Position numbers and translations under genes: made by a program. The notes under the pieces were generated by a model. The model saw only the letters and a list, made by a program, of their open reading frames with translations, was not told where the DNA came from and did no database searches. Source: Photobacterium phosphoreum (lineage in GTDB: Bacteria; Pseudomonadota; Gammaproteobacteria; Enterobacterales; Vibrionaceae). From it: a stretch of 64,000 nucleotides of DNA. The stretch spans positions 655,857 through 719,856 of the forward strand of contig NZ_MSCQ01000001.1 in assembly GCF_002954725.1 (NCBI RefSeq). The letters are read 5' to 3'. Positions 49,561-52,583 of this stretch are shown piece by piece; the stretch's first letter is position 1, and every line of letters begins with the position of its first letter.

Positions 49561-49585
49561 CTAACAAGAATATTGAATTTATAAA

Positions 49586-49616
49586 AAATACACACTTTTT
49601 ACGTGTGTATTTTTTT
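49586..49616 (+). terminator. Intrinsic terminator after serC
   Basis: AAATACACAC / GTGTGTATTT stem with seven T residues following. Confidence 0.9.
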
Positions 49617-49719
49617 ATAGATAATACGCAGTGGTAATACTTGGTTACAATATTTTATCTTGAGCATTTTTGATTGCTCTATATAATCCAGAGCTCATTT
49701 CTATTGCTACTGTGAATGT

Positions 49720-51753
49720 ATGTATAAAAAATCAATATTAAAGGCATATTACAATAATTATATTCGTGATATTTCGATTGTTTTTTTATTATTACTGCCT
49801 CTTATTATTTGTAATGCAATTACATTATTTGTTGGTCATGGTTTAAACCTGATTAAGTTTAATGAATTAGCCAATAGTCTCTTTTATTTGTCTAATTTAT
49901 TAATTGGTATTTACCCGATAGCACTATGTTTGATCACCAGTTATTATATCGCGACAAAACATGGCGTGAATGCCATGGTCGTTGTGCCATATTCATTAGT
50001 ATTATTTATTGCGGTATCTGTTCCTAATGAATTAGTGTCAGTACATAGTGGGTTACCTAATAATCCACTTATTGCATTACTCGCTGCACTTATTTCAGCA
50101 CTGTGTTGTACTTCCTTTCGTCTTTTTCCGCTTGATCCCTCACGGATTGATTTTGTGAAAACGCTTTATAAACATGTATTACACTTTGTTTGCTTCCTTC
50201 TGTTAACGGTTATCTTGGTGAGATTAACGACACTTGTTATTGATATAAGTAAAGAGACACAGCATTATCTTTCTCTTAATCCTCTTACTTTTTATGGTGG
50301 GTTAGCATACCAATTTATTTTAGGATTATTAGGGGCTATTGGTATTAACGGCCATAACTTCCTTTTTAGAGCTAAGCAGCAATTATTTGAGGATACACAA
50401 CAAAACATTACTGCATGGCAAGCGGGAGAAGCCCCTTTAAATGTGCTTGGACAGGGGTTTTATGATGCTTTTCTCTCAATGGGAGGGTCGGGTAATACGA
50501 TTAGCTTGTTGTTGTGTATTTTATTATTTTCAAAAGAGAGACGTCATATAACATTGGCATTCTCGGCATTACCGTTAGTTATTTTTAATATTAACGAGCT
50601 TTTATTATTTGGTTTGCCGGTTATTTTTAATCCAACATTAATTATTCCTTTTGTCTTAGTGCCTTTAGTGAGTTTTGTTGTTGTATATAGTGCGATCACA
50701 TTAGGTTTTGTGAATCCAGTGAGTACTATTGTTGATTGGATGACGCCTCCTTTTATTAGCGGCTATATTGCAACTCAGCACAGTTTATCTGGTGTGATAT
50801 TACAAATTGTGGTGGTTATAATAGGTATTGTTATTTATCGTCCTTTTTATCTCCATTATGCAGGCAGAAGTCCAAGTAATAATATAGCGATAAGCCATCA
50901 GTACGAACTCAGTCGTAGTACGTTAAAATCATTTTTAGGCGATGTGAATCAAGCCATGAGCAGCTATATCAGCAAACATGATATTAGTCGTCGTGTGAGT
51001 CGAATGCTGAGTTGTGGTGAATTTGTGATGCATTATCAACCGCAAATCAATTTGAATAATGATCAGCATTTATCTTTTGAAGCACTTCTTCGCTATAAAG
51101 ATCCTGGTGGAAAATTATTACCACCGCTATTTATCCACGATTTTCAGCAATTGGGTGCAATGAAGCAATTGGATAAAATGGTGATCGATTTAGTGTTGAC
51201 CGATATGCAAAAAATGCCATTAGAGAGTGGTTGTAAGGTGGCGATTAATATATCCGCAGAAACCATTTCTGATAAACATATTGTGGCTTATATTGTCGAG
51301 CGATTACGTTTTTTTAATATTTTACCTGAAGCTTTGGAAATAGAAATTACAGAGGAAGTGATTATTGTTGATGATAAGGGGGTCTCTGAAAATATCGCGG
51401 TATTGCAAGCGTTAGGGATTACTGTTGCTATTGATGATTTTGGGTCTGGTTATGCCTCTTTTCCACATTTATTAAAATTTAATTTTGATAAGGTGAAGTT
51501 AGACCGTTCGTTATTATTTAATATTGAAAATGAGCGTGAAAAAAACCTATATCAATTATTAGCTAAAATCAGTGAAGTAACCGGCTGTGTCTTGGTTGCG
51601 GAAGGGGTTGAAACAGAGATAGAAAAACAGTTTGTGCAACAATGTGGTATTGATATCGTTCAAGGTTTCTATTTTTCCAAGCCAATGACGCTTAATAATG
51701 CTTTGTCATGGATGAAAACGGTTACTATTGGCAATAAAACGATCGTGGAATGA
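49720..51753 (+). CDS. PTS EIIC-like membrane domain fused to an EAL phosphodiesterase
   Basis: This 677-residue protein joins an N-terminal membrane domain (about 1-380) like the lactose/cellobiose-type EIIC permeases to a C-terminal EAL domain (about 425-670). EIIC hallmarks include GINGHN (His212), MGGSGNTISLLL, FNINELLLFGLPVIFNP (Glu293) and WMTPPFISGYIAT. The EAL domain keeps all usual catalytic residues: Glu454 in FEALLRY, Asn510, Glu545, Asp572-Asp573 in IDDFGSG, Lys593, Glu628 in AEGVET and Gln648. No EIIA or EIIB gene is nearby. A reasonable reading is a sugar-sensing phosphodiesterase that lowers cyclic-di-GMP. The ribosome site is weak. Its base content is AT-rich. Confidence 0.9.
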   Translation: MYKKSILKAYYNNYIRDISIVFLLLLPLIICNAITLFVGHGLNLIKFNELANSLFYLSNLLIGIYPIALCLITSYYIATKHGVNAMVVVPYSLVLFIAVSVPNELVSVHSGLPNNPLIALLAALISALCCTSFRLFPLDPSRIDFVKTLYKHVLHFVCFLLLTVILVRLTTLVIDISKETQHYLSLNPLTFYGGLAYQFILGLLGAIGINGHNFLFRAKQQLFEDTQQNITAWQAGEAPLNVLGQGFYDAFLSMGGSGNTISLLLCILLFSKERRHITLAFSALPLVIFNINELLLFGLPVIFNPTLIIPFVLVPLVSFVVVYSAITLGFVNPVSTIVDWMTPPFISGYIATQHSLSGVILQIVVVIIGIVIYRPFYLHYAGRSPSNNIAISHQYELSRSTLKSFLGDVNQAMSSYISKHDISRRVSRMLSCGEFVMHYQPQINLNNDQHLSFEALLRYKDPGGKLLPPLFIHDFQQLGAMKQLDKMVIDLVLTDMQKMPLESGCKVAINISAETISDKHIVAYIVERLRFFNILPEALEIEITEEVIIVDDKGVSENIAVLQALGITVAIDDFGSGYASFPHLLKFNFDKVKLDRSLLFNIENEREKNLYQLLAKISEVTGCVLVAEGVETEIEKQFVQQCGIDIVQGFYFSKPMTLNNALSWMKTVTIGNKTIVE

Positions 51754-51857: not shown

Positions 51858-52583
51858 ATGGATCCCCTTGTTTTTTTTATTTGCCTATTAGTTTTTATTT
51901 GTGGGTGTTTTATCCAAAGTACTATTGGCTTTGGGATGGGTGTATTAGCAGCTCCATTTATTCTGTTGCTTGAACCACGTTTAATGCCGAGTGCCATTGT
52001 TTTTATCGGTATGTTTATGTCTGCCATTGTGTGGTATCAATATCGACATGCTTTATCTCTACGCTTTTTAATCTTTGCTTTTTTAGGGCGCTTACCGGGT
52101 ACATTAGTTGCTGCTTATGTCTTAATGGTCATTTCTACGGATCAATTAGAGATTATGCTCGGAGTAACAGTATTAGCTGCAGTGATATTAAGTTTAGCAA
52201 AATTACGGTTAGCACCAACCCCGATAAATTTATTCATTGGTGGTTTTATTTCAGGGGTAACAGGTACAGCGACAGGCATTGGGGGACCCCCTATAGCTTT
52301 GCTTATGCAAGCTGAAGAACCCGATCATATTCGTGCTAATCTAGCTGCATTTTTTTGTTTAACTAATATTATATCATTGGTGGCATTGCATTATTCAGGA
52401 CGGTTCACAATGGCTGATTTTAGTTCGATTGTGTGGTTATTACCCGCACCGATTATTGCTAGTGTTATTGCATATCGTATTCGCCATAAAATTAAAAAAC
52501 AAGTGATGCAATATGGCGTATTAGTCTTATGTTCGTTATCTGCAGTAGTTTCATTATCGCAAGGTTTACATATTTTTAGTTAG
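51858..52583 (+). CDS. TauE/SafE (TSUP) family membrane transporter
   Basis: This 241-residue protein has about seven to eight hydrophobic helices in two halves, as in TSUP proteins that export sulphite, sulphoacetate or other organosulphur anions. The two family motifs are visible: STIGFGMGVLAAPF near the N-terminus and GVTGTATGIGGPPIALLMQ in the second half. It lies about 100 bases after the EIIC-EAL gene without an obvious terminator between, so co-transcription is possible. Substrate unknown. Confidence 0.88.
   Translation: MDPLVFFICLLVFICGCFIQSTIGFGMGVLAAPFILLLEPRLMPSAIVFIGMFMSAIVWYQYRHALSLRFLIFAFLGRLPGTLVAAYVLMVISTDQLEIMLGVTVLAAVILSLAKLRLAPTPINLFIGGFISGVTGTATGIGGPPIALLMQAEEPDHIRANLAAFFCLTNIISLVALHYSGRFTMADFSSIVWLLPAPIIASVIAYRIRHKIKKQVMQYGVLVLCSLSAVVSLSQGLHIFS

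Follow-up and report, generated by a model that had tools for sequence, protein, structure and literature searches.

One gene of Photobacterium phosphoreum joins a PTS permease domain of the lactose/cellobiose type (EIIC) to a C-terminal EAL domain, and its product is probably a membrane c-di-GMP phosphodiesterase in which the EIIC part, no longer engaged in sugar phosphorylation, serves as the sensor. The protein holds the two domains, the EAL catalytic residues, Glu293, Trp340, Asn210 and a conserved pocket half, and lac-type PTS partners were not found for it. This branch lost the residue that normally serves when the sugar is phosphorylated, so that the EIIC part probably senses a sugar and does not transport it. 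The gene lies in the window, i.e., the whole 64,000-nucleotide stretch of DNA that was analysed, and its features are collected in Table 1.

Table 1. Features of the EIIC-EAL gene and its upstream region (window coordinates; residues are numbered in the encoded protein)
Feature	Coordinates	Strand	Remarks
AT-rich inverted repeat, terminator-like, between serC and the fusion gene	49580..49619	+	Seen by eye; absent from the scan output
Sigma-70-like promoter match upstream of the fusion gene	49660..49687	+	Motif scan; 10/12 positions
EIIC-EAL fusion gene	49720..51753	+	Single open frame, 677 aa; Pfam PTS_EIIC and EAL
PTS_EIIC domain	49783..50664	+	Pfam, residues 22-315; similarity to 3qnq reaches residue 377
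Gly205 codon	50332..50334	+	Trp245 of 3qnq
Asn210 codon	50347..50349	+	Position of the phosphorylation-site His250 of 3qnq
His212 codon	50353..50355	+	Taken as the functional His in the initial annotation
Glu293 codon	50596..50598	+	Glu334 of 3qnq; no exception among 139 fusions and 97 free EIICs
Trp340 codon	50737..50739	+	Trp382 of 3qnq
Linker	50866..50988	+	Residues 383-423; last hydrophobic segment ends at 382, EAL starts at 424
EAL phosphodiesterase domain	50989..51684	+	Pfam, residues 424-655; ten examined catalytic positions all there

The fusion gene is preceded by serC (named by eye) and followed by a same-strand frame at 51858-52583. The 159 bases separating it from serC contain the inverted repeat and the promoter-like match; the scanned stretch has 16 sigma-70-like matches and shuffled sequences have 11.8 on average (sd 3.2), which is no clear excess. 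The gene is probably transcribed alone.

The fusion proposed in the initial annotation was borne out by the domain search, in which the one open frame exceeded the curated Pfam cut-offs for both PTS_EIIC (48.1 bits, cut-off 30.7) and EAL (202.2 bits, cut-off 31.3). The proposed likeness to lactose/cellobiose permeases was also recovered. The NCBIfam models of this group, whose cut-offs are 236 and 434.45 bits, matched residues 188-377 with a score of 142.9 bits, and the protein accordingly failed the test for the TIGR00410 lacE subfamily (cut-off 236). The N-terminal half of the EIIC part lay outside this match, and the closest solved structure for the membrane part was 3qnq, a PTS cellobiose-specific IIC (E = 2.2e-28, residues 174-377). 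An AlphaFold2 model (24 close orthologs) had a mean pLDDT of 55.8, with the EIIC part mostly below 60, a quality too low for conclusions about the pocket. Compared with ChbC/LacE (PF02378, TIGR00410, 3qnq), the protein thus shares the same domain over residues 22-377, the glutamate, the equivalent of Trp382 and the GGSG and NINE motifs, but it falls below the lacE cut-off, carries Asn at the phosphorylation-site histidine, is without detected lac-type EIIA and EIIB partners, and has gained a C-terminal EAL domain.

In the alignment with 3qnq, GINGH of the window protein lies over GIHGA with no gap, so that His250 corresponds to Asn210 and His212 stands two residues off. The assignment of His212 as the functional histidine was therefore not sustained. 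His250 and Glu334 of 3qnq reportedly sit at the sugar hydroxyl to be phosphorylated. Glu293 of the NINE motif, which had been named as a retained EIIC residue, does align with Glu334, and a glutamate occupies this position in 139/139 distinct fusions and 97/97 free-standing EIICs. Because the histidine at the functional position is replaced by Asn210, the pocket is partly substituted, an outcome that the initial annotation had listed as refuting its own proposal; the retention of Glu293 and Trp340 speaks against a dead pocket. Of the 139 fusions, 93 have Asn at position 210, 45 have His and one has Gln, and of the 97 free EIICs, 92 have His and five have Asn; in an initial set of 20, taken from relatives in Photobacterium, every free EIIC had His. 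Position 205 was Trp in 94/97 free EIICs and Gly in 49/139 fusions, all 49 of which, the window protein included, also carry Asn210.

The idea that the replacement of His by Asn proves a loss of the chemistry was dropped. Asn in 5/97 free EIICs means that the change is not exclusive to fusions, and since one of these (L282) stands beside a lac-type EIIB, Asn is no proof of lost phosphotransfer. Moreover, as 45/139 fusions keep His, the chemistry may not have been abandoned throughout the family.

The PTS partners were sought by profile search. Matches to lac-type EIIA (PF02255) were absent from the whole 4.55-Mb genome, and none of the six EIIB matches (PF02302) fell inside the window, in agreement with the original remark that no EIIA or EIIB was nearby. 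A lac-type EIIB model built here did not match any of these six loci. The only lacE-type matches in the genome were two fusions below the cut-off, namely the window gene and a paralog on contig C2 (36% identical), and no free lac-type EIIC exceeded the lacE cut-off. Twelve PTS_EIIC matches were counted in this genome, both fusions among them, and other PTS families are thus present.

The lac-type EIIA and EIIB models were built from the neighbours of free EIICs and matched 17 and 19 of 21 free-EIIC loci, respectively (partly their own training sequences). The same models matched none of 153 fusion loci with flanks of 1.5 to ~6 kb (99 of the loci are longer than 8 kb, and some represent one place twice) and none of 13 further fusion loci. 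In the wider set, EIIA or EIIB was found for 57 of 77 free EIICs. Within ~1.5 kb, such partners accompanied 74/92 His-type and 1/5 Asn-type free EIICs (Fisher p = 0.009, a comparison of small numbers and related sequences), leaving 18/92 His-type EIICs with no EIIA or EIIB detected at that distance. Among 12 genomes carrying a window-type gene, which were counted by hand with one fragmentary genome omitted, a free lac/cel EIIC over the lacE cut-off was missing in nine. Four free EIICs (L260, L236, L281, and L283) had Asn at the phosphorylation histidine and no lac-type EIIA or EIIB within ~1.5 kb, and their neighbours resemble, by eye, an asparaginase-type hydrolase or a fucosidase; they are possible non-phosphorylating EIICs.

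It is quite unlikely that the EIIC part is still coupled to the PTS, with an EIIB of another family docking on it and either sugar phosphorylation or the docking itself setting EAL activity. One of the six PF02302 proteins could in principle serve the EIIC, L282 shows an Asn-type EIIC adjoining an EIIB, His is retained in part of the fusions, and the idea resembles that of a review whose available text treats PTS_EIIC as a receiver (PMC8846402). However, lac-type EIIA or EIIB was found near none of the examined fusion loci, the six EIIB loci of this genome fail the lac-type model, and His is replaced in the window clade.

Selection was estimated in four ortholog comparisons, excluding the linker, which was too short and gave undefined values in two of the four. 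The dN/dS ratio was 0.048-0.059 for the pocket half (residues 186-380), 0.084-0.110 for the EAL domain and 0.137-0.183 for the N-terminal EIIC half; synonymous distances were high (0.33-1.25), and the ratios are therefore rough. The strongest constraint lay on the sugar-pocket half, and the order of the parts was the same in all four comparisons. A role of the EIIC part as a mere membrane anchor or dimerisation platform that binds no ligand is very unlikely: the N-terminal half indeed evolves fastest and lies outside the lac/cel match, but an anchor would need neither a pocket half that evolves the slowest of the parts compared nor a glutamate kept in every fusion.

The EIIC part might instead act as a working facilitator that moves unphosphorylated sugar, with the EAL domain reading the transport cycle as in a transceptor. 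The whole EIIC domain is retained, Glu293 and the motif glycines 256 and 258 are kept in 139/139 fusions, and the EIICs of ChbC and MalT are described as dimers with elevator features in the accessible portion of PMC7329351. On the other side, the genome search found no lac-type partners, the neighbouring frames, judged by eye, did not include an operon for sugar uptake or catabolism, and import without a kinase would be expected to bring little gain; this alternative is unlikely. The sensor reading fits best, because lac-type partners were not found, His is replaced, Glu is invariant and the pocket half is the most constrained. Of the original suggestion of a sensor or facilitator coupled to c-di-GMP breakdown, the sensor is thus the favoured form and the His212 detail falls away.

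For the output domain, ten catalytic positions were examined, the choice of which we take to be that of the EAL literature. All ten are present in the window protein, as had been claimed, and at each of them no more than two of the 142 aligned rows (139 distinct fusions plus three present twice) deviate. The exceptions are L223, a truncated protein, and L095, with Asn in place of Asp573. Phosphodiesterase activity is therefore likely, judging from these residues. Degenerate EAL proteins can serve as receptors, and LapD and FimX were among the weaker matches; still, with all ten examined positions present, a c-di-GMP-binding effector without turnover is most improbable.

Besides Vibrionaceae, nine further families of the order contributed to the 139 aligned fusions, as did other Proteobacteria and Clostridia. 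Duplicates L214-L216 were dropped and two short proteins were kept, L115 with 479 aa and L223 with 584 aa and a truncated EAL domain; as the fusions were picked by models from the first 90, very distant ones could be missed. The free EIICs came from the same order. A first sample of 23 EIIC-only frames gave 20 after removal of two weak fragments and one duplicate, and the 80 loci L227-L306 yielded 78 free EIICs, 77 of them distinct (L232, a duplicate, L267, and L301 contributed none), for 97 altogether.

In the EIIC tree, with the root placed within the free EIICs, all 139 fusions formed one clade (support 0.994) apart from the 97 free EIICs. In the EAL tree with 32 other EAL domains, 132 fusions stood together with a support of only 0.545, six others grouped elsewhere (0.99) and one stood apart, so that a single fusion event is not proven from the EAL side. 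The window clade of 90 fusions (support 0.945 in the tree with the 97 free EIICs and 1.0 in another tree run) had Asn210 in 89 members and His in one, L095, the same protein that has Asn for the catalytic Asp573. On our reading of the tree, starting from His, Asn arose once for the window clade, L209 and L110 acquired it in addition, and Gln appeared in L221. There is about an even chance that the EIIC-EAL proteins are one ancient receptor family common to Proteobacteria and Clostridia and derive from a PTS permease that became a disaccharide receptor with direct control of c-di-GMP, and that in the window branch the phosphorylation histidine was replaced once and stayed so (89/90). If this is the case, its replacement there implies that this branch senses sugar independently of the PTS phosphate relay.

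The distribution of the fusion was surveyed in genome samples, of which those of the order, class and phylum overlap. Among the Vibrionaceae, 146/329 genomes matched the window protein at E <= 1e-40, a threshold that EAL-only proteins of the own genome did not reach (1.8e-33 for the best of them). Coverage was seen among the better matches listed (to ~2e-70), and since 7/146 genomes had a best match weaker than 1e-55, some of these may be non-fusions. In the order sample, at least 44/394 genomes had a match into both domains, 13 from the same family and 31 from nine others (two candidates per genome scored; one with an internal stop and one cut short). In the class sample, both-domain matches occurred in 2/369 genomes among the matches listed (the own genome and G748). 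The phylum sample gave 18/398 at E <= 1e-75; the own genome is among them, further families of its class are represented, and one genome belongs to a different class.

Seven of 72,556 plasmid records matched, each into both domains and none over 80% of the query; they came from Photobacterium, Vibrio, Tritonibacter (three), Clostridioides difficile and Acetoanaerobium, and the three that were fetched all had an open frame with both domains. In the C. difficile record, labelled a plasmid (L212), the EIIC-EAL gene adjoins rlmH and chromosomal-looking genes, and the record may be a mislabelled piece of chromosome. Surveys of c-di-GMP proteins in C. difficile are said to mention EIIC-bearing EAL proteins. 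The fusion L198 had no DNA-level match in 20,395 E. coli records, a search whose reach does not extend to diverged copies.

The gene contexts of other fusions were varied. In Enterovibrio, window-type orthologs have a GH18 chitinase (cluster 15, eight loci) two to four frames away, and a CBM5/12-type protein (cluster 27, six loci) is encoded at a distance of two or three frames from several Vibrio-type fusions, with one representative of each cluster searched for domains. This chitin context was not counted as evidence on the ligand, being two synteny blocks among many contexts with no background comparison. Five fusions (L194, L195, L196, L101, and L104) stand between an SBP_bac_3-GGDEF cluster gene and an EAL cluster gene, the latter cluster with weak SBP_bac_3 and GGDEF matches (one representative searched per cluster); this is a conserved c-di-GMP gene group. 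At L209 (G562:C76), three EIIC-EAL genes lie in one cluster, and the gene after them groups with a MASE1-EAL protein (search of the representative, from L200). Asn occupies position 210 in each of these three fusions, a change apparently independent of that in the window clade. At L063, L070, L071 and L073, two EIIC-EAL paralogs lie close together, ~50% and 31-34% identical to the window protein. At L198 and L199, the fusion lies between frames that resemble a response regulator and a histidine kinase (by clustering), near Tus-family and YdgH-like genes, a layout that resembles the enterobacterial rstA-rstB pair with the fusion inserted.

A transporter-derived sensor is known in CbrA, an SLC5-like histidine kinase, which likewise uses a transporter fold as signalling input, with a fold and an output that differ from those of the EIIC-EAL proteins. 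In the open-access literature searched, PTS_EIIC and EAL appeared together only in the 2022 review, whose available text counts PTS_EIIC among the domains of GGDEF/EAL/HD proteins in a Pfam 34 census and treats it as a rare phosphoreceiver domain, with the output domain unnamed in that text (PMC8846402). Unlike such a phosphoreceiver, the window protein lacks the phosphorylation-site His, and lac-type partners were not found for it. In PdeS (VC1710) of Vibrio cholerae, a PAS-EAL protein is controlled by separate soluble EIIA-Glc, according to the accessible sections of PMC6877527; as here, PTS sugar status is tied to an EAL phosphodiesterase, but in the present protein the permease domain itself is fused to EAL. 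The EIICs in the available parts of PMC10100716, PMC11878068 and PMC10513181 are ordinary PTS permeases. A search for a functional study of an EIIC-EAL protein found none in the open-access literature, a scope that excludes most subscription papers.

In the mechanism we propose for the sensor, the EIIC part would be a homodimer carrying the sugar pocket; it would bind a beta-linked disaccharide without phosphorylating it and then shift conformation, and this shift, relayed by the linker of ~40 residues to the EAL pair, would alter c-di-GMP breakdown. EAL domains usually work as dimers. Our best guess for the ligand, by descent, is a disaccharide of the chitobiose/cellobiose class.

To our knowledge, the input signals of most c-di-GMP phosphodiesterases are unknown. 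Since the ancestral ligand class of this sensor is known, ligand screens can begin with a few disaccharides. If the proposal is true, an outside sugar would be linked directly to the switch between motility and biofilm, bypassing the PTS phosphate relay, and the family would offer an example of a transporter turned receptor in which extant His-type and Asn-type relatives can be compared.
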